From: Viridothelium virens
Taxonomy: Eukaryota > Ascomycota > Dothideomycetes > Trypetheliales > Trypetheliaceae
Direction: 5' to 3'
Length of the DNA stretch: 64,000 nt
Assembly: GCA_010094025.1 (NCBI GenBank)
Contig: ML991811.1
Location: 124,001 to 188,000, forward strand
Position 1 is the stretch's first letter. Each line of letters begins with the position of its first letter. The notes beneath the pieces were generated by a model. That model ran no database searches. It was not told the DNA's origin and saw nothing but the letters and a program-made list of their open reading frames with translations. This document shows, in pieces, positions 24,223 through 51,500 of the stretch. The translations under genes were made by a program, and so were the position numbers.

Positions 24223-24573
24223 GTATGAGGTCTGTGTTGAGGTATCGGGTCACCATTTTGATTTTGTACAAAACGATAGAGCTCCTGCTGCATGTCGTAA
24301 GCAGGTATGTGTATTCTATTCTCAGCAACTAAATCCAATTGCTCTACTTTCTGTCCTATTCGGGGTCGAATTCTGAGTTCGCCAAAAGCGTGATTGGACA
24401 GAACTAGACATATCGTTGCGCCTAGGGTAGAATGGTCTTCAAGTGTCCATACTGGATGAAAGATGTAAGGCCAGTAAGGAATGTCCTATCGGCGGTTACC
24501 ACTACCTCGACATGACGCTGGCCACACAATCTTAGAAAGGAGAATCATGGAGTTTTATGGAGCGCCGAATCTC
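24223..24573. other. Convergent intergenic region
   Basis: About 350 bp between two 3' ends; nothing recognised. Confidence 0.35.
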
Positions 24574-26636
24574 TTATACCCGAACACAATCTCCATACAC
24601 CTTGAGCATTTGGACGACGACTATGAAGCCCCCCACTGCAGGCGCAAAAATGAAACATGTATAGGAAATGAACATGCAAAGAAGACCAATAGCTCTGAAA
24701 AACGTCATGATCTGTCGTTCTTCTCTTCCGAGTATGTGTTTCGTCCAGAAAAACCTATACTGGAAAATAACAATTGGCACCAGAAGACCGTAGATACCCC
24801 CAACTACGAGCTACGACATTGTCCATGCCCTCTGCGCACGTGTACTATGGTTCTTTTCGAACCCAGATAAAGCTCCGACAATTGCTAATGACACTCCAAC
24901 ATACATGGTGGAAGGGCCGATAGCAGCGAGAGCCGCAGCGTCTACCAATGCTTTTGACTGCAGCAGGTCTGGAATTGATCCGCAATCTTCCTCAGATCCG
25001 CCCCTTGCTCTGGGAGATAATACCTTCCACAATCCTGTGGCTTGCTCGGAACTGACCGTGGGGAGACGACTCTTGGTCAGATGCTTGGGAGGACTAGTGA
25101 AGGCGCTTCTCCAAGATTGCATCCATTTGGAGCTCATTCGATTGGACTGTCGTTCAAAAGGAGAGCAGGCTGGAATCCTGAACATCTTGTTTTTCTCCGA
25201 TGGAATGGGACGAGACGGGAAAAAAAGGGTTGGCAAATGAAGTATCTGCGAAACGGTGAGGGATCTCCGTTTCCGGTAGGGCTCCCCATTTAGCTTTCCC
25301 AATGAGACTTGTTCAGAAGCCACATCCCCTCCGTCGTCGTGTCTTCGTGCCAAGGGGGTAACAGTATCAGACTCGGAGTACGCCTCATCCCGTAGGTGCT
25401 GTCGGAAGCCAACCATATTGTATACCTCTGCCTCGGACGTCGCAGTCAAACACAGCCTCGCGGTATTGCCTATTTCATGGGATAATGGGCATAGATGACC
25501 GATAACTCCATCGAATATCCCACCTCTGCGAATGGCTTCGTCCATTTCTGGGGACCGTACCATATACACATTGGGATAGCTTGGGGACACAAGCTGGCCG
25601 ATAAAGTTGAAAATGGACATGACCAAGTACGGTGCCACAGTTAGGCCGAAAGCGGAGTACCCGTATGTTGAGATTTGACTTCCTCGAGCACGATATAGAG
25701 TGGCCCCTGAACTGAGTGCTTGTACGATCCCGAGAATTGCCTGCGCAGCACTGTAGATACCGGCCATGCTGACCGTTGTTCTCCCGCTACCACTCCCAGG
25801 TTCTGGTGTGGAATTGCGAGTAACAGTTGATCCGCCATTGTTGAGGTCCACGTTTCTTACCTCAGCTATGGCGTCGCTTGGTACAATGGTGAAAGAATAA
25901 CCGGCCGGGAGTTGATACGCACCGTGGACCTCGAATGGTTGAGAAACATACCAGGTCTCCCAGCCCGTGTCTCAAACAGGAAGATGCTCCTTCAGCCATT
26001 GGGGTCTGACACGCACCCATGAAGACGTACTTTCGCAACGCTGTGGAGGATGAAAGCTTGCTTCATTCTCGGGTCTACCAGGACTTTGATCTTCGCGGCT
26101 TTCTTCCTGAGAGGTGTCTTTTTCTGCGTCGTCTTTCTCTAGATTACCAGATCTGCCTCATTTGTGAGTGGAAACAACTTACCTGGACTGCTACAGTCGG
26201 GAATCTCCACACCGTCTATGACATCCCCGTCTGTTGGGCGCCAAGACCTATTTCTTGTGACCATACATACAGCGCCGGCACGTATGGCGCTCCCGATAGC
26301 GTTCGAACCGTACAGCCTCGAACTCCGAACCAAAGAGTTCACTGCGATCAAGACACCAGAGCCAGGGAAAGAAAGCGCGAGGACCTTTCTCAATGTGGAG
26401 ATCAATACCGACTCCCCCGGATAGGAGTTAACAGTAGCACAATGAGCCAGGTAATTTAGAAATAGAAATACGACAATCGATGTAGCTGTAGAATTTGTGC
26501 AAATAACATCAACTTCGCCATGATTGAAAATTTGGTTATTCTTTTCATTAGGAAAAACGTGTATTGATGTTTTATTGAACGGTAGAGAATGAGCTGAAGA
26601 GAGTATTGCCAGGAGGCTTGCTCTTGACAACATCAT
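24574..26636 (-). CDS. Fungal multi-pass membrane protein with in-frame stops, possibly a pseudogene
   Basis: Exon 1 is complement(26183..26636): a signal-like start (MMLSRASLLAILSSAHS), a Cys/Asn-rich ectodomain piece and helices such as IVVFLFLNYLAHCATV. After a 44-nt intron the same frame continues from 26138 to 24574, with helices including YGYSAFGLTVAPYLVMSIFN, VGVSLAIVGALSG, LLVPIVIFQYRFFW and FRAIGLLCMFISYTCFIFA. In total it spans 673 codons, resembling unnamed Pezizomycotina plasma-membrane proteins. Two stops lie in this frame: TGA at 25972-25974 and TAG at 24811-24813. The TGA could sit in a 48-nt phase-0 intron (25930-25977, GTTTGA..TTCGAG with CTCAAC). No good intron removes the TAG. 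The cytosolic loop contains a segment shared with the STAND-like gene (25021-25087). Confidence 0.6.
25021..25087. repeat. 67-bp segment shared with 31379-31445 (copy A)
   Basis: About 59 of 67 bases match 31379-31445 without gaps, in the same orientation. Both copies are read on the minus strand in the same frame, giving HLTKS and VSSEQATG in both proteins. The similarity fades quickly outside these limits; a few matching bases continue on the lower-coordinate side. Confidence 0.8.
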
Positions 26637-28717
26637 GAGCTTGATGAAAACCGAGCTTTCTAGCTGCGAGTAATCAAAACTTTGGTGAACTTTGCGTAAG
26701 ATTGTCGCGATTACAAGGTAAATTAATAACGTCCTCAAGGCTGGAAAAATCAGCAGTAAGGCGTCGGAATAGGTAGCCAATATTCATATTTTTCAGCCTT
26801 TAGCACAGACAAAGCAGTTCTCAACCCAATCAGGGCATGCTCCCTTAGTCGACAAGGCTGAAAATGGAGGAGCTCGTCAATCGATGATCTTTGAGAGGTC
26901 AGTCTGACTCCACCAGCATTCAGCCTGGGTTAAGGACCCATAAGCAGATACAACTCCAGAACAGCCTACGAGGAGTACCTATCAAGGACTTCACCAGCTC
27001 CATTGCTAAACTTACAAGGCTGGGCGTGGTTGCATAGCGACGTTTAGCTTAATGGAATTCACCGGTGGGAAAGAGACACCCAAAAACTTACCCACAGTGA
27101 AGTAGTCAATACTCTACGCATTTCCGAGATTAAGCGCATCAGCAAATCTTCTTCATGGAAAGAAAAAGGAATGCCACGAAATAGGTCTTTCAGAAATAGA
27201 TTTGGCATTAACGACGCGACTGGCAGAATAGTACGCCTGCGTTCCGTGAACCCCAAGCCCAAGCCATTTCCGGCTCAGCTTCGACCACATAGGTACTCCG
27301 CAGGGCTCGTATATCTCAACACTGGGTATCACTTCTAATAGGTATCGTGACGATCATACTACTTGTAACGTGCGATGTTGCAGGGTGGAAGGAAGACTGA
27401 GCAGTACGGGCGCCATTCGAGTTTACGGCGAAAGGCTGGGCGGACAGTGATATCATCTCACCCCATCCGACAGCTCCTTCGTTACACTTCGCCACGAAAT
27501 ATGACGTTCCTGTCCCAGATGTCTAAAGCTATGCGACCAATGCCAGAGCGAGTTTCGAGGATCTTCACTTGGCAGAGCCACTAAGCTTTTTGCTCTGCCA
27601 GCCACATGCTGCGCAGCATGGCCCGTCACGCGCAGCCATGGGTGTCGGAATACAGCGAAGTCAAAAGGGAAGGCTACGACATCCTGCTCACATTGCCATT
27701 ATGCCCAATGATCCTGTCTGCCAACCCGCATGTCTCATCGTCCGAAGTTTGTCACTAGGCATGCAGAGCCAGAAAACAGGGTCCGTTCGGCAAATGTACA
27801 GGGGAGTAGGACATCGGTTCCGTACTCCGTCGAAGCGCGCGATTCCTCGACAAAACTCTCTCCTCCGGGCGCTCATCCGTAGCAGGCTTAGGATGGGTTT
27901 GCTTGCTCTGACATCCCCCACCAACTCCTGAGACGGGGTTGGCTGTTGGGCAACGGCGATCAACAGTCGCAAAGCGTGAGGATAGTGTTTGAGATAAGAG
28001 TGTATATCATTATTCGTTCTGACATGGTGTAACGTTGCCAATCCTCTACCAGTCCCACGAGACATTCTGAAGCCAAATTGCCACCATCATCTGTGTGCCC
28101 TCAGGTCTGCATCGCCTCGTGGCAGTCGCAGGTCTTGACGTCGGCGGGAGAATGGGTGGGCGCGCTATGTCAAGCACCAGGAGCTGAACTGTGGGCAAAG
28201 CAGACCTGTCGCGAAAACTTGCAATGTGACCTATGGCATGGCGAAGGCAGGCGGGTAGCGGTTTGAGAGGGCGGCGACATGGATGTCATAGGATCGGGTT
28301 GAGTGGCGCCAGGACGGAAAGCGTAAGGGTCTCTAGTAAGGGACTTTTGGCGGAGCAATGATCATCGACCCACCATGCCACACTGGGTCTGCCCCGAGCA
28401 CCAAACAGGTCCGCTCTCTCTCTCTCCATTCTCGAGAGTCCACCTTTGATCCCACCGGTCGGCATGATTACCCTCTGCAAATCCCACTCCACCCTTCTTG
28501 TATAACGTTGCTTCTTCTTCTTCTCTGCTGCCTTCATTAGGGCCATTGGAACTACGATACCCTGAACTTGAAGGCCTTTCAATTTGCAACACCATTCACA
28601 GCCGGCCTGTGACGTAGGCGGCCTCGCTACCCGCTGTCGCACCACCAGGACCAAGGGCACACTTAGCTCACAACACCGCCGCCCGCGACACTATCATCAC
28701 CCTTCCTTCCAGCAAAA
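26637..28717. other. 2.1 kb gene-poor interval
   Basis: No supportable gene. Short ORFs (for example 27059-27262 minus and 27569-27931 plus) have no recognisable features. An 11-bp inverted repeat, TTTTCAGCCTT at 26790-26800 and AAGGCTGAAAA at 26854-26864, could form a hairpin with a loop of about 53 nt upstream of the membrane-protein gene. A CTTCTTCTTCTTCT tract near 28509-28522 lies upstream of the next gene. No transposon ends are recognised. Confidence 0.4.
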
Positions 28718-29396
28718 ATGTCATCCCCCATCGAACCGCCTTCGGCAATGCCGACTGTTGCAGAGCCTCTTGCCAGTCCTTCTCCATCGACATCCTCTTC
28801 GGCATCCTCCGTTAATGAAGACGCTCCGTCGAAAAATATGTCAGTGACAGATTCAACAAAACTAGAGCGCCCAAAACTGGGTACTCGAAAATCCTCCGGG
28901 ACGATGGTCATTCCAAGGGACAGCCCTCATGTCGAGATTGAGGAGGAAGAGTACGATGAGAATGATGCTCGGTGCATGAGTCCAAGACGGACCACGGAAG
29001 AAATCGAGAGGCTCGAGAAAGATGCGCATGATTCCCTCATAGAGTAAGCTACCACACTCTGTCAACTCATGCCTTTGATCATGTAGTCACGATTGCTCTG
29101 CCATACTCACCTTCCCTTCCATCGGGCTAACTCCATGTGGTTACTGCAGGCAAGCCAAGATACTGCAAGCCAGTCTGATAGCTATTGTCAACAAAGTCGA
29201 GGCGGTCAAATCAGAACATGAAAAACTTGAGGGTGGAAACAAGTTCTTGCAATCGTGAGTCTTATCGCGTGAAACGGTATACCTTTCTGGTTTCTGACAA
29301 CTGCTATTTAGATATATTGGCGAACTCATGCAAACGACCAAGATCACGTCTACCGGCCCTCCCAAAAGCAAAGGCAAGAGTCGGGGCACCAAATGA
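28718..29396 (+). CDS. SCOC/DUF2205-like short coiled-coil protein
   Basis: Three exons, join(28718..29043, 29150..29254, 29312..29396), encode 171 aa. The first half is Ser/Pro-rich and acidic (VEIEEEEYDENDARCMSP). The conserved part is a coiled coil: RTTEEIERLEKDAHDSLIE, then QAKILQASLIAIVNKVEAV, KSEHEKLEGGNKFLQS and YIGELMQT. This is the pattern of the DUF2205/SCOC family, Golgi-associated coiled-coil proteins that in animals bind Arl GTPases and FEZ1. The function in fungi is little known. The short last exon ends with a Lys/Gly-rich tail. Confidence 0.82.
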
Positions 29397-31261
29397 CTAG
29401 AAACGTACCCCTACAAACGGATCCGCCTTGCGTATTGAATAATTTAATCTTCCCGGTACATAATTTTTCCAGAGGGACACGAAACTCGAATAACCTGCAC
29501 TACCACCAGCCTCGAGCGATTCAGTTCGACTTGATATCCATTATTAGCGAGAGCGATCACGGCGTCCGGAGAATGTTTTTATCCTAATGACTCCCAGAAC
29601 CATCTGGAAATTTTTTACGACCAGTGCCAGGCTAAATACATGGTCCACCTGTGAATTCAATGGTCTCTCAACCTTGACTGCTGTATTTTACAATGGTCTC
29701 CTAAGGAGATGGGGCGTAGAAGGTCTGCGCTGTCTGCAGAGCCTTCTGCACAGCGAAATGGCGAAAGAGGTGCATTTGCATATACCGGCATAGGGAACAG
29801 AAGGGAATTCTCACGAGAAGGCGGCGGGGAAATTCTATCAGCGATTCGGTCTGCTGGATGGTGTCTCGTGCTCTGCATGATTTTGCATTGAGCATGATTC
29901 CCAATTTTTCAATTCAATCTTTCAATGTGTACACGCCTTCACTCATGCTTGAACGTCAATAAGCAAACGGCGTAGCATAGCCTAGCCTCATCCGAAAAGG
30001 ACAAACCAACTATTTCAAAACGTGTCACAAACTTCAACTTGACCCATCCTGATACACATCATAAAGTCGCTTATTGAATCGAGATGACTCTTGAGCTACC
30101 GTGCGATCTCTAGCTACCATCGTTTTCCATGTTGTGGAAATGGTAATTAGGCGGTTGGTATGTATATCCCAACCTCCGAACAACCCGCTTTTAGCACCTT
30201 GCATATCGCTCATCCCCGGTTGACCCACTCTTCTCCACTAGTCATAGCCTAACCCCTTTATTCCTAAAGCTTGCTTCACGGATACCATTTTCGTGCGCAA
30301 TTTCGGCTTCGACCCGATGCTAACATCATTTGCTGAACATGGAGACCGTTACGCAGAATTTGGACCACTAGCACAACCATCACATCTGGCGGGTTTGCTC
30401 GCCAAACCTAAGAACGTTAATAGGTGCACGTTACCCAGGTCGTATCACTTCTTGCCGGACTGAAAGAGGGGGCTACAGTCACGGACCACTGCGCTAAATA
30501 GCTAGGCAGCTACTCAGGTACGAGGCGAGTGCTTCCTGTTGATCACTATTAAGTTTTACTCTGGCGAGTTCTGTTGTTTCATCTACGCCTTACCAAATGG
30601 GAAAGCCGGTGCCGAAGCGTTGATCAATAACCTGCAAACCTGTTGTTGCTGGAAAAAGTACCGTTTCTCCACCGAGGTGTCGAATATGCTGGTGACCTGT
30701 CTTTGTTGCTTTTTGCCGGATCGATGGAGGCGAGAGTGGCAATGCGAAACAAGAAAGCAATTGGTGTTTCGTGCAGGAGGACCTTACATACGCGGGTGTG
30801 TTTGGGAGCTTGTTGGAGAAGAAGATGCTGTATGAGGCGAAGATAGGAGAGACATGAGGAAACAATTGTGAAATCATGTTTTGGGTACAATATGCTATCC
30901 CTCTCTTCTAGTTCTGAACTACTCCGCTTCATTTCCTGTGCGTCCCAGTAAAATATGATGCCAGCATTGCAAGGGATCGAAATGTGTATGGGCCAATAGT
31001 GGTACGAGTAGGTGCTACTGTCTTCGGCCACACATTTTACATTCCATGGGGCAAGTAGCCAAAATGCTTGTGGCAATTATTAATAGAAATACAATCTCTG
31101 GAACCTGATCCTCATGAACTTAAACCCAGTACGTTGTGTTTTCAACGCGCTCCGGTGAATTTTTTTTTACCATGATGCGTAAGGTACGAGGGTGATGACG
31201 TAGGGCGGATTAAGTAGGGGTCAACAGGAAGACGAACTTCTTAAATGGTTCTATCCCAAAC
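29397..31261. other. 1.9 kb gene-poor convergent interval
   Basis: It lies between the 3' ends of the SCOC-like and STAND-like genes. ORFs of 60-150 codons on both strands look like chance. No tRNA, repeat or transposon feature is recognised. The length is unusual for a convergent region in this otherwise compact window. Confidence 0.4.
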
Positions 31262-33395
31262 CTAATCTATCTCCTCGAAACTATCGTCTTCATCGAATAT
31301 CTCTTCGGGTATCTCAACGCTCACAAAATTTTCATCCGCCCTGGGAACATAGTTCAAATGTGTTGCAGCTGACAGAAATACCTTCAGCACTCCTGTGGCT
31401 TGCTCAGAACTGACCATCCGGAGAAGACTCTTGGTCAGATGCTTGATCTCTGCGCCCCAAGTCATATCGTACCAGTCAAGTCCATCTAAGATGATGAAAA
31501 TCGCTTTGTGACACAACTGTAGCTGATTTAGGATGTTACCTATCACTTTCAAATGTGTCGAAAAGGAAAGTTTGCGGAGTCCGGATACGTCGGCAGGATT
31601 CAAGGAGAGATACGGGTAACCGCTTGCATCTTGAGTCCAATCAACTCCGTCCAGACTCAGTATCTGAGCCAGAAGTGCTCTGACCATGGTCAATGGACCA
31701 CTGGAATCGTCAGAGTCCTGAAGTTGTCCGCCACCGTGTAAACCACAGAAAAACTGGAGTACAAGAACCTCGTCGCTTTCGAGTAGCTTTGCTTCTAGAA
31801 GCACTGATAAAAAGGACGCTGGAGTAATAGGCTCGAGTTCGCCATTGCCTTGAATATAGATCATACCCGAGTCACTTGAACTCACCCAATTGCGGAATCC
31901 AGATGTTTCCGCTATCCACTTAGAACGAGTCTGGAACTGCGGCTCTTCATTCAATCCGAAATTTCGAACGTCGCCTCCGTCGCTTATATGGTCATTGCAA
32001 TCAAGCACCAGATCTAACGTGTCTGCCAAGGATTCTGGCGTCCAGGATATCTCACCGATCTGTTTCTTGAGCGCGTCAATCTCCCGATCTGCTCCGTATG
32101 GCGTTAACACAAAATTTACTGTTCTTAGTCGATCTCTTTCCTTACCCTTTTCTTTTGTAGTCTGAAGCAAAGCCTCCTTTAGTCTTTCCACTTCGCTCTG
32201 CCCTTCAAGATCCGTCAGCAGTAAGTCTAATCCCTTCAGTCTCGCATCGGCCACTCACATTTTGCATTCTTTGTCTGGTCGCCTAATATCTCCTGTAACT
32301 TATTCATTATACGTGCTTCCAACGTACTGACTCTTCTAATCATCCCTTGTCCAATTTCTTGCGCCCCTTTCTTCGCATCTTCCACTTGAACACTCAGCTT
32401 CTCTATGCCAGAACGCGAATCTCGGACAATTTCTTTCGTTTCGAGAACAGTTCCATGTACCATTTCTAATCGCCAATGCAGAAACTTGGCCACAGCGGCT
32501 TGAAATAGCGTTCTTGACTTTCTGATGTTGAGGATGTAGCGATCGATGGCTTGGCCATAGTTCTCGTTCTTGAGTAGACTTTCTCGCACATGTCCTGCGA
32601 ATAATTAGGGTTCACGCACAGAGATGCATAGCCGAGAAGGCTTCGAACTTGCAGTTCCTTGCATATACCACTTAACGAACTCTTCAAAAGTGGAGAGAAG
32701 ATCGATATAAAGCTCCTCAACGCGGAACCTCAATTCGTTTTGACCGGGATATATGCTTGAGTATTCCTCACAATTACCGATATCTTCAGGGAGCTCTTCC
32801 ATTACTTCGGCAATCTTCTCGCGAATATCGGAGTGGCGCATCATTGCCTAAGACTGGGTTAGAAGAGTCTCTCCTGTCTACGCATTGTTCGTCATACGGA
32901 AAGTATCAGTGTCAGGCCACCACACAATGTCTTATAGTTGCCATCCGGCAGAAGGCCAACAAAGGACTGGAGAGACTTCCCATTGCTGCCGATCTTCCTG
33001 AACATTGCTCGAATCTTCCCCGAGACCGAGTCTTTCTTCAGATATTTTCCTTCGGCCGATTTCACGATCTCGTCTACCTCGTTCCAGTTGTGCGCACCCT
33101 CAAAGCTGAATTTGCCGATTTCGACTTCACTGCCCTTCCTTTTTTGCAATTCCTTGACGGCTTTGGTAAAACTTGAAGTAGTTCTGGCTAGCTGGAGCTC
33201 ATTTTCTCTCGACAATACCAACGAATCGAAAGGGAGTCTGTGCTGGTCCGGTTCTAGTGGATTTGGAACAAAATGCTGTCTCTCCACGTCAAACGTGACG
33301 TTGGTATTTTTGTAATGATACTGTCGATTCTGCAAATAGTCCACTTCGAGTGGTTGCTCCGATGGCAATGGAATCTCTTGTCGAGAGGCCGACAT
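31262..33395 (-). CDS. STAND-like fungal protein without a P-loop
   Basis: Four exons, complement(31262..32202, 32259..32594, 32649..32847, 32898..33395), encode 657 aa. The N-terminal third resembles the helical domain found in front of fungal NACHT/STAND NTPases (DUF7708-like: HNWNEVDEIVKSAEGKYLKK, FVGLLPDGNYKTLCGG). A coiled-coil stretch with LETKEIVRDSRSGIEKL follows, then a region arranged like the start of an NTPase domain (SKWIAETSGFRNWVSSSDSG, VLVLQFFCGLHGG, IFIILDGLDWYD as a Walker-B-like strand). Where the P-loop should be, the sequence reads QGNGELEPIT, with no GK[ST]. No C-terminal repeats are present. NTP binding is therefore doubtful; a decoy, regulatory or decaying STAND protein is inferred. 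Confidence 0.72.
31379..31445. repeat. 67-bp segment shared with 25021-25087 (copy B)
   Basis: Read on the minus strand it encodes HLTKSLLRMVSSEQATG followed by LKVF in the NTPase-like region of the STAND-like protein. It differs from copy A at about eight positions. A segment like this is at home in STAND proteins, so this is probably the older context. Confidence 0.8.
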
Positions 33396-34280: not shown

Positions 34281-37200
34281 ATGTCTTCGGACGAAAATTC
34301 AAGAAGTTCCGCAATGAACCTCACGAGCGATGACAGTGTCGATGCAATGACAGGTCTACCCACCTTACTGAGCATCCGGATATAACCTGCTAATGTAAGG
34401 TCTAGAGACGCGGCCGCTCAATGGCGATGGAAAGGAGTCGCGAGAAAAGCCTCAAGAGAAAGAAGTCCCCAGTGATCCAAATTCCCAGCGCCATGACAGT
34501 TCTTCACAAGAAGAGGTTGAAAACATAACCTCTCATCAGATCTTGAAACCTAAAGCGAATGAAGATCCACAGCTCTTGACGAAACCAGAGGATGCACCAT
34601 CGGGAGATGAGAAGTCCGGTAAGGGAGAGCTAAATTATGACAAGGGCGAAAATGACGCGTCAGGAGATGAAGAGTCAGAGCTCGGCGATCTTAGCGATGG
34701 TGACAGCGTGGATGACTTGCATGAAGCGCTCAGAATGAAATTTGAGGACATAGAGTCGAGAAAAAAGCTTGTATCAAAACGAAGTAAACAGCACCGACAA
34801 TACCTCAACATCATGGAAGAAAGGGTCTTGCTTTTGGAGGAGAGATGTGATTGGCTGGATAAACGTGCAAAGAAGCCTGGTTTCGATGGCGATTCGGTGG
34901 ATGACCCCTCTGAAGGAAAGAAAAGGGCCCTTAAAATGACTTTGAACCCCCAATTTTGGGAAGAATTTAAGGAGAGTTCAATGGGTGAAAGTCCGTATGT
35001 CATCGATGTTTTGATGGGGGAGCCGAAGCATCCGGATGCGAATGCCGATGAGCCATGGCGACAAATTTCCTTGCTAAGGTACTTCAATATGGAGGAATTG
35101 CGTGAGCAGGAACAATTATTAAAGGGCCGCTCAGATACCGAGAAGAGATCGGAACTCACCAAAGAAGTCGAAAACATCCGAGGTAATCGCATGCCGGAAC
35201 GGATTCGATTTAATAGCTGTGGCCTACAACACCTTCTTCGGCAGTATTTTCATTCGAGCTCCACTTCACTGAGAGTCTGCATTAATCCAGGGTTGATCAT
35301 GTTACGCCCCTTCAAGGCTTTGACACATTTTGAAGATCAAATCAGAACGCTACAGCAGAATCTGTTCGGGATCCTAGATAGGTTAAAGTTGACCGGGAAT
35401 ACGCAGTCAAGTGCACATACAAATCAGGGCGATGAACATAGAGACGAATCAAAAAGTGAAGAAAGCGAGCGTCATCCAGATCCCAATCTTCCAATAGCTA
35501 TGGGCGAAGAAGAATGGTCCTCCGTCCTTAAAGATCTGGGGCTCTTTCATAGCGACGAATGCTGTAAAATCATTGCTCCAGAGTGGCCAACTGATCAAGA
35601 AGCTAGAAAGACTTTTGAGTGTCTCCTTCAATTCATGGATCTATATCTGAAGCCGGTAACGTCGCAACTCCGAAGGCGTGATGTCACGAAAGTTCGATTC
35701 TCCGATTTGTGGCATCTCTTCAGAGCTGGCGACGAGATCATCACCAGCGAGCCGACGAAGAACCAGGATGTCCTCGCGATGAGGGTGATGAGGACGAACG
35801 GAGGTCGACGCAATATTCATCCAGGAGTCTCACCTTCCTTCGACTCCACTCCTTTGCCGGACCCAGAAGATCGAGTCAGACCGGTGGACAAGATCAACCC
35901 CTTCTGCATTCACGCACATTATCTAGACTTCGACGGAACATCACTGACTCCTGTACGCAGGCGATTCATTATCTATCCCTATGCAGGGGAACGTGCTATC
36001 ACTGAGCTCGATGTGTATCCTATAGAATACGCTCTCAAGGTCGAACCTCAATTGAAGAATACATTGATCAAACGGGGAAGGAACTTCATCAAATATGTGA
36101 TGTCGAGCTCCTTGTCATATTGTGACTGTAAGGGAAAAGAGCTGACCACAAAAGAGGATTTGAACGACAAAGTGATCGTCGATATGAAGGAATACTACAA
36201 GAGTCATGTACCTCCTCGGTTTACTGAACCTGAAGCTTTGGATATGTCCGAGACGAGCGACTGCACTCGCGGACTAGACTGCACACTCGGTGCAGACTGC
36301 TACCATGGTTCAACAGAGTCGTTCATTCAGGACCAGCATACCGACAAAACCGCAATGAAGGACTACCTCAATCAACATCAAATTTTCAAGGAATCGTCTG
36401 AGAAAGCTCAAGGCTCCCCCTCGTACTGGACCGATGATGAGGCTGCTCTTTGTAACTATCGGCTTTTTGCATACAAGCTTCGATCACGGGAGTGGGGTAC
36501 GTATTTCTTGGTGTGTTGGGAATCAGTAGTCTCTGACCAAGGACAGTCGAAACCCACGTTGACAGCCTTCACGACGTGACACTCACTGATGACGGCAAAG
36601 GCTTCGAGCGCCTAGTCCTTCCTGCTGCGCATAAGCATATCATCAAATCGCAGGTCAAGGAGCATTTCAGAAAGAAACAACTGTACACACCAGCTGCACA
36701 AGACGATCTCGACTTAGTGCGCGGGAAAGGACAGGGGCTTATCATTCTATTACACGGTACAACCAGATAATCGTGTAGATATACATGCAACTAACGATGT
36801 CCAGGCGCACCGGGGGTTGGCAAAACCTGTACCGCTGAAACGATTGCGGATCTCGTCTGGAAGCCCTTGTACCCAATCACATGCGGAGACTTAGGAAGTA
36901 CCGCCCGCGAAGTTGAGCAAAATCTCAAGCAGCATTTCACATTAGCTAGCAGATGGGACTGTGTGATGCTCCTGGATGAAGCCGACGTGTTCCTGGCCAA
37001 GCGGAAAACCGAGGATTTGGATCGTAACAGCATCGTCTCCGTCTTTCTCCGGATCATGGAGTACTACAAAGGCCTGCTCTTCTTGACCACAAATCGAATA
37101 GGGACCTTTGATGAAGCATTCATGTCTAGAGTTCATATCTCATTGTTCTGTAGGTTCAATCTTGAGTATGGGTCGCCAACGTGATCACGGCATACTGACG

Positions 37201-48538: not shown

Positions 48539-51500
48539 ATGCTGGACGAGGAGACCTCGGCAGCTGTGGCTGGGGTGTTGGCCAATCTTGCTAGGCAATA
48601 CGATCCTATCGAGGATGGCTCCTTTCGCGGTCAGGTTGCGACAAATGGGCTAAAAGGCAACAACATCATACTTCCAGGGACAGATACGGTTGCAAAAAAG
48701 ACATTGGAACAGGAGCTATCGCATTTGGTAGCTAGAATTCAGTATTTAGAAGCTCGCGCAAGCGGTGGCACCGGTAATGTCTTCCCTATGACACCGAACG
48801 AAGCTGGCGTCGCCACACCCTTCCCGTCGGAGTCTCCTGCAAGAGGGCAGCGGACGGCCTCTTCTATTCCCGCACGCCAGAACTCAGGTTCAAACAAGGA
48901 CTCGCGCGCCAATTGGGTCACAAATCTTTTAGCCAGTCGAGAAAGTACGAATGGGGAGGGTCCAGCTCAAACTACTCAGCTCACGAGTGAGCAACTGGGC
49001 TACCTTCGAGACCACGTCAACAAACAAGCCGAACAAATCAAATCACAACGAGAGACCATCGAGAGTGTCAGCACGCAATTAAGCCAACAACAACGGGAGA
49101 CAGCAAGGGCGCTCGGTGGATTGGAACACGGCATGGAAGACATAAGTGCGCTGAAACGTGAGCTTTCGAAATACCAACAGGCCAACGCGGCCTTTGCCAA
49201 GGCGCTCAAGGAGATTGGCACCATTGTGACTAACGTCGCGAATGGAGATCTATCAAAGAAGGTTTTGATACACGCACAAGAGCAGGATCCTCAGATATCA
49301 ATATTCAAAAAGACCATCAACCGAATGGTAGATCAGCTGCAAGAGTTCGCAAGTCAAGTTACACACCTGGCAAAGGAGGTTGGGACAGAAGGTCGACTAG
49401 GTGGACAAGCCGTCCTTCCTGGTGTTGACGGCATATGGGCAGAGCTTACACAAAATGGTTGGTACATCGGTTTAGAATCGCTGCTATCAGCTGATCCGTC
49501 ACAGTAAACATCATGGCCGAAAATCTGACCGATCAAGTGCGAGAAATCGCCGTCGTCACTACCGCAGTAGCACACGGTGACCTTAGCAAGAAGATTAAAA
49601 GGCCTGCGAAGGGCGAAATACTGGAGTTGCAACAGACGATAAACACCATGGTGGATCAGCTCCGCAATTTTGCTACCGAAGTCACAAAAGTGGCGCGCGA
49701 CGTCGGTTCTGAGGGTGTTCTTGGTGGACAAGCACAAATCCAGGGTGTACAAGGCATGTGGAATGACTTAACAGTGAACGTGAATGCGATGGCCATGAAC
49801 CTCACCACGCAAGTCCGCGACATTGCCGATGTGACTACCGCCGTGGCCAGGGGCGATCTAACGCAGAAAGTCAGAGCCCACTGCAAAGGTGAAATCCTGG
49901 AGCTCAAATCGACTGTGAACATTATGGTGGACCAGCTCCGACAATTTGCACAAGAAGTGACGAAACTTGCTAAAGAAGTAGGAACGGATGGGAAGCTTGG
50001 TGGTCAAGCCACGGTCTACGGCGTGGAAGGCACATGGCGAGACTTGACTGAAAATGTCAACGGCATGGCCATGAATCTCACTACACAGGTCCGAGAGATC
50101 GCTCAGGTCACCACTGCGGTCGCCCAGGGAGACTTGAGTAAGAAGGTAGAAGCTGAAGTCCAAGGAGAGATCTTGCAGCTCAAGATCACCATAAACACCA
50201 TGGTTGACAAGCTTGGTACATTTGCTCAAGAAGTCAGTAAGGTCGCTCGAGAAGTAGGAACAGAAGGAACTCTCGGTGGCCAGGCCGAAGTCCTTAATGT
50301 GGAGGGCAAATGGAAAGATCTGACAGACAACGTCAACACCATGGCTGCCAACTTGACGAGTCAGGTTCGGAGCATATCGGAAGTCACACAGGCCATTGCC
50401 GTGGGTGATCTGGGCAAGAGGATTGAGGTGCCAGCTCACGGAGAGATCCTTGTCCTCAAAGATACCATCAACAACATGGTCGAAAGGATAGACAACTGGT
50501 CTCTAGCTGTCAAAGGCGTAGCAAGAGATGTCGGAGTAGAAGGCATTATGGGTGGTCAAGCCGATGTAGATGGCATCGAAGGACGCTGGAAGGAGATAAC
50601 CACAGACGTCAACATCATGGCACAAAATCTCACGTCCCAGGTCCGCGCATTTGGCGACATCACAAACGCGGCAATGGTTGGCGACTTCAGCCAGATGATC
50701 ACGGTGCGAGCATCGGGAGAGATGGATCAGTTGAAGAGGAAGATCAATAAGATGATTGCGGACTTACGAGACAGTATCGAAAAGAACAAAGCCGCAAGGG
50801 ACGCTGCAGAGCTTGCGAGTAAGACCAAATCGGAGTTTCTGGCAAACATGAGCCACGAAATTAGAACGCCGATGAATGGAATTATTGGCATGACCCAGCT
50901 CACGCTTGACACGGAATTGAGTGCCTACCAGAGGGAGATGCTCAACATCGTTCACAACTTGGCTAATAGCTTACTCACGATTATTGATGACATTCTGGAT
51001 ATCTCCAAAATCGAGGCGAACCGAATGGTTATGGAGCAAATACCCTTTTCACTGAGAGGGACCGTCTTCAACGCTCTCAAAACGCTCGCCGTTAAGGCAA
51101 ACGAAAAAATGCTTAACTTAGCTTACGCCGTGGATAGCTCGGTTCCTGATTACGTCATTGGAGACTCTTTCCGGCTGAGACAGATCATCTTGAACCTTGT
51201 AGGAAATGCCATCAAATTCACAGAGCGTGGCGAGGTCAAAATAACAATCGCAGCTGCATCCCAGCAAGATTGTGGTCCCAAAGAGTATGCATTCCAATTC
51301 GCAGTCTCAGACACAGGCATTGGTATCCACGCCGAAAAACTGAACCTCATCTTTGACACCTTTCAACAAGCCGATGGATCTACCACCCGCAAATTTGGTG
51401 GCACGGGTCTTGGTCTTTCAATATCGAAGCGGCTCGTCAGTCTAATGGGTGGTGATATGTGGGTTGCGTCTGAAATTGGCCAGGGCAGCTGTTTCTACTT

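Follow-up and report, generated by a model that had tools for sequence, protein, structure and literature searches.

Genes at the locus

The window, which is the whole 64-kb stretch of DNA that was analysed, corresponds to C41:124001-188000 in a genome assembly of 30,719,852 bases (30.7 Mb) and 175 contigs. A gene for a membrane protein and a gene for a STAND-like protein are neighbours on its minus strand, and the two genes have one 69-bp segment in common (Table 1). No RNA families and no tRNAs were found in the window.

Table 1. Positions of the two genes, the shared segment, the flanking repeat and a second short pair. Positions are those of the window, except for the last line.
Feature	Position	Strand	Remarks
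STAND-like ORF	31262..32254	-	NPHP3_N 30.6 bits (cut-off 24.8); canonical P-loop GxxxxGK[ST] absent
Upstream ORFs 32236-32589 and 32892-33395, STAND-like gene (probable 5' exons)	32236..33395	-	
69-bp copy in STAND-like ORF, probable donor	31377..31445	-	just past Walker-B-like stretch; same stretch in paralog L006
Upstream block of membrane-protein gene, frame differs from central ORF	26142..26780	-	homology to P0001 residues 45-156 at 26537-26217
Central membrane-protein ORF with the segment, 346 codons listed, 386 stop to stop, ends TAG	24811..25851	-	37% identity, query residues 23-122, to C92 paralog
Same frame continued past TAG	24577..24810	-	family homology, two hydrophobic stretches
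69-bp copy in membrane-protein ORF, probable recipient	25019..25087	-	61/69 to 31377-31445; sole partner in assembly
CTCCCA, left copy of 6-bp direct repeat, insert edge	25086..25091	-	possible target-site duplication; weak
CTCCCA, right copy of 6-bp direct repeat	25011..25016	-	
Second pair, 96 bp, coding piece of membrane-gene paralog	L012:1512-1607 (C92:45531-45626) / L009:1670-1765 (C92:5298-5393)		inverted

The shared segment and its copy number

The two copies were aligned without gap and are identical at 61 of 69 bases (88%, or about 12% diverged). The initial annotation had described a match of 59 of 67 bases at 25021-25087 and 31379-31445, with strand and frame in common. This match is confirmed as a part of the full one, and both copies are indeed in one reading frame, that of the local long ORF. 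The residues common to the two copies are HLTKSxLxxVSSEQATG, in which four positions separate HLTKS and VSSEQATG. The pair was the sole repeat family of at least 25 nt reported in the window with a 14-base seed. The copies are only about 6.4 kb apart, and this closeness is partly an effect of ascertainment, as the pair was spotted within one window only.

A search of the whole genome, as had been proposed, was run with a 91-base query and gave two places in the 30.7 Mb, the query itself and its partner (E 2.8e-18); this search skips very common words and its place counts are lower bounds. Queries of 2,134 bases from the STAND-like region and of 2,206 bases from the membrane gene each found, besides themselves, only the 69 bp of the partner. 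The same tool does detect repeats, and gave 13 places for a dispersed repeat on C41. The segment is similar in length to dispersed short repeats of the MITE or introner kind, but two places against 13 make it no dispersed repeat. Chance match is rejected by the E value, and duplication by the assembly is unlikely with 88% identity and unrelated flanks. Repeat-induced point mutation was also considered as the source of the differences between the copies and rejected, as only three of eight are transitions.

The STAND-like gene

The ORF 31262-32254 scored above the cut-off of the Pfam NPHP3_N profile, and no Pfam family reached its cut-off in the two ORFs upstream. The canonical P-loop is absent from this ORF, so we call it STAND-like and not an active STAND NTPase; the motif is present in another NPHP3_N protein of the same genome (L008). 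The ORF retains DGLD, which we take to be a Walker-B-like motif, and ends soon after it. The profile match and DGLD resemble fungal NLR/STAND proteins with NPHP3_N or NACHT domains, whereas the missing P-loop and the short remainder differ from them. Some fungal NLR candidates are described as having noncanonical P-loops, according to excerpts of PMC4986451.

A STAND paralog, L006 on contig C85, showed 44% identity over residues 245-327. It carries KSMLRSVNSTGASGVVKV at the place homologous to the segment, and over the homologous stretch the STAND copy reads EIKHLTKSLLRMVSSEQATGVLKV and L006 reads KVRRFMKSMLRSVNSTGASGVVKV. Five residues distinguish the two copies of the window. L006 has the STAND residue at two of them and a residue of its own at the other three, and nowhere that of the membrane copy. 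This stretch and the residue agreement make the STAND gene the likely source, and the suggestion that the segment is native to this gene is thus borne out at the protein level. As in templated insertions, the source appears to persist in its native context, with ORF 31262-32254 still open and the stretch kept in L006. A short coding piece of the STAND-like gene has likely been transferred to the neighbouring membrane gene.

L006 adjoins an ORF with a HET domain on the other strand and slightly overlaps it in the ORF listing; HET is given as a fungal domain in excerpts of PMC4986451. The HET and NPHP3_N genes and the size of the assembly suggest that the genome is fungal. Upstream of L006, beside the HET-domain ORF, near-repeated short ORF texts were observed at L006:1138-1570.

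The membrane-protein gene

The segment forms residues 255-278 of the listed central ORF, between hydrophobic stretches at residues 67-85 and 307-325. Pfam gave no match for this ORF or for its paralog P0001 on C92. P0001 is a single open frame of 863 codons with seven hydrophobic stretches in a Kyte-Doolittle scan. In the window, the central frame reads through from 25971 to 24814, between in-frame stops at 25974 and 24813, and family homology continues past the latter stop to the end of the family. Introns of about 40-120 nt that carry canonical fungal signals were sought in 24500-26900 by a simple regular-expression scan, and none was found. The two stops and the frame break, compared with the single ORF of the paralog, suggest that the membrane gene is probably dead in this assembly, although sequencing errors or unusual introns might also explain them.

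For the loop, the best match of the paralog was that of P0001 residues 558-629 with 25248-25057, which extends into the segment and is non-significant (E 0.24). If this match were real, some of the sequence at the site of the segment would go back to the ancestor of the membrane family.

Boundaries of the segment

The ends of the segment are sharp. Directly outside the 69 bp, 0 of 10 and 1 of 10 bases are identical, and over 100 bases the identity is 30% and 23% on the two sides. In four comparisons of the 1.5-kb flanks, the observed score was reached by 11, 56, 15 and 86 of 100 single-base shuffles. So the ends are abrupt, as in templated insertions, and source and target have no homology in the flanks. 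The piece is indeed common to two otherwise unrelated neighbour genes, as first described.

A second short pair

During a protein search with the membrane paralog, a second pair was met unlooked for, in which a coding piece of the paralog recurs elsewhere on C92. It has 83 of 96 identical bases (86%), is inverted, lies 40.2 kb apart on C92 and occurs at two places in the assembly (a lower bound). Of the 10 bases next to it on each side, 4 are identical, and over 50 bases the identity is 10% and 24%. Among the differences, 12 of 13 are transitions. No flanking 6-bp repeat was present, only 3-4 bp (P 0.77 or more).

Origin of the segment

We consider it probable that an old templated insertion gave rise to the 69-bp stretch, and that a break in the membrane locus was patched by a short copy from the STAND-like gene 6.4 kb away. 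This reading is drawn from the occurrence at two places only, the sharp ends, the native STAND context and the second pair of the same make-up. A break or a stalled fork would have arisen in the membrane-protein locus, and a short piece of the STAND-like gene would have been copied in by microhomology-primed template switching or by fragment capture. End-joining would then have closed the patched locus, and the copies would later have diverged by about 12%, the membrane copy without visible constraint. The direction, insertion rather than replacement, the DNA template and the repair pathway are all four what we infer. The initial annotation had left the choice between templated insertion and conversion: the former is supported by the sharp ends and the two places, but strict conversion, which has homology of donor and acceptor around the tract, is not supported, as flank homology is absent.

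Excerpts of three papers report comparable insertions, at induced breaks in yeast (PMC11724301) and Magnaporthe oryzae (PMC9684475) or as human polymorphisms (PMC5110952). In M. oryzae, genomic DNA including coding sequences was inserted at Cas12a breaks, with microhomology of 2-3 bp at three of four junctions (PMC9684475, in excerpts). In yeast, templated insertions from distant loci are increased in mutants (PMC11724301, in excerpts), and the human polymorphisms (TSIPs) form two classes by junction features (PMC5110952, in excerpts). The present segment is like these in being a copy from elsewhere in the genome, with sharp ends, no flank homology and a retained source. It differs in that it would be an old natural case, read from sequence, which is 12% diverged, 69 bp long and in frame in a neighbour ORF. 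The M. oryzae events were far larger, with deletions of 3-11 kb and donor DNA, and the short yeast events were foldback duplications of mostly 5-34 bp (excerpts of PMC9684475 and PMC11724301, respectively). Some points count against templated insertion. The non-significant loop match of the paralog runs into the segment, the 6-bp repeat at the edges is only weakly better than chance and has no counterpart at the second pair, and insertions at such joints are rare in yeast, according to excerpts of a review (PMC9779921).

The template might also have been RNA. A retroelement could have reverse-transcribed a fragment of the STAND transcript and inserted it with duplication of a 6-bp target site; we regard this as unlikely. 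CTCCCA is found at both edges of the segment, the two copies starting 75 bp apart, and class 1 human insertions carry duplications of 5 bp or more from the recipient site (PMC5110952, in excerpts). At random sites of the window, a repeat of at least 6 bases had P of 0.03, 0.09 and 0.17 for zones of 8, 12 and 16 bases; it is weakly better than chance, non-significant for the wider zones, and a hint at most. Against the RNA template, the sequence has no poly(A) tract at the insert, and such a template explains neither the partner 6 kb away nor the second pair within one contig.

We think it very unlikely that the piece was inserted into a living gene and its 23 new residues took on a function in the loop, with the stops being strain-specific, unrecognised introns or sequencing errors. 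In its favour, 69 bp is divisible by three, the segment sits in an open frame of 386 codons, and the two stops are the only ones between those at 26160 and 24576. However, the family paralog is a single ORF with neither these stops nor the frame break, and the scan above gave no canonical introns. Seven of the eight base differences between the copies fall in five residue-changing codons and one is synonymous. Among the possible single changes 142 are nonsynonymous and 50 synonymous, and seven or more nonsynonymous of eight is expected without constraint (P = 0.34). The membrane copy thus shows no sign of constraint in a test that is weak, since it has only eight changes to go by and two codons hold four of these. 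A shared strand and frame would also arise by chance in one of six cases, by simple reasoning. The stops at 25974 and 24813, the upstream block in another frame, the lack of visible constraint and this prior leave the idea of a route to new protein parts unsupported.

It is highly improbable that the STAND gene was once duplicated in tandem over a greater length, next to or inside the membrane gene, and that deletion or decay beyond recognition left only 69 bp of the duplicate. STAND genes are frequently duplicated in general, and the neighbour loci share their orientation. Against this, identity is 88% inside the segment and at background immediately outside. Comparison of the two 2.5-kb regions was otherwise empty in tblastx (next best E 0.28) and in word-4 blastn (next best E 2.7), and the recipient frame stays open to either side of the segment and leads into blocks of membrane-family homology. 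The sharp ends and the absent flank homology therefore argue against a relic of a large duplication as they do against classical gene conversion.

Under the templated-insertion reading, the 69-bp segment is likely a single scar of repair, left in a gene that is itself probably dead. If a relative with the empty site exists, the segment would be a clear-cut natural relic of the transfer, by repair, of a coding piece from one gene to an unrelated neighbour, in what is probably a filamentous fungus.

Recurrence and other repeats of the contig

Four stretches of 2.1-2.7 kb (9,541 bases) searched against the assembly gave two short pairs, independent of each other and each confined to a single contig; the finding itself had led to the choice of three of these stretches, and two pairs in 9,541 bases are no rate. 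No short pair was found for the control stretch 34543-37042. The simple two-copy pairs found are 6.4 and 40.2 kb apart, each on one contig, and the second pair hints at a recurrent process. It might mean that this genome repeatedly copies coding pieces of 60-100 bp within a chromosome and that local break repair is a standing source of modules, sometimes in frame, which seems to us rather unlikely.

C41 was compared with itself over 264,000 of 294,510 bases (E up to 1e-4), and 24 pairs were obtained. Thirteen belong to one tandem array, six to a repeat at 63, 234 and 256 kb, two to an internal repeat and one to a dispersed repeat; the remaining two are a 71% pair and the 69-bp pair itself. The latter is the sole simple two-copy pair of its length in the 264,000 bases, the 71% pair of 213 columns aside. 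The pair 26365/55158 (61 bp, 95%) was considered as a third case and rejected, being part of the dispersed repeat with 13 places.

Several of these repeats can be described further. The dispersed repeat, at least about 93 bp long, is found at L019:2335-2455 (C41:26335-26455), and the tandem array, which is diverged, is also in L019, at C41 about 27.5-28.8 kb. The copies at C41:63542-63723, 234354-234535 and 256412-256507 (L022, L033 and L035) match in both orientations, like a palindromic short mobile element. In the window, 49504-50567 (C41 173.5-174.6 kb) has internal direct repeats, about 65% identical, at offsets of 276 and 552 bases. The 71% pair, C41:247299-247503 and 38483-38276 (L034 and L020), is inverted and contains gaps over its 213 columns.
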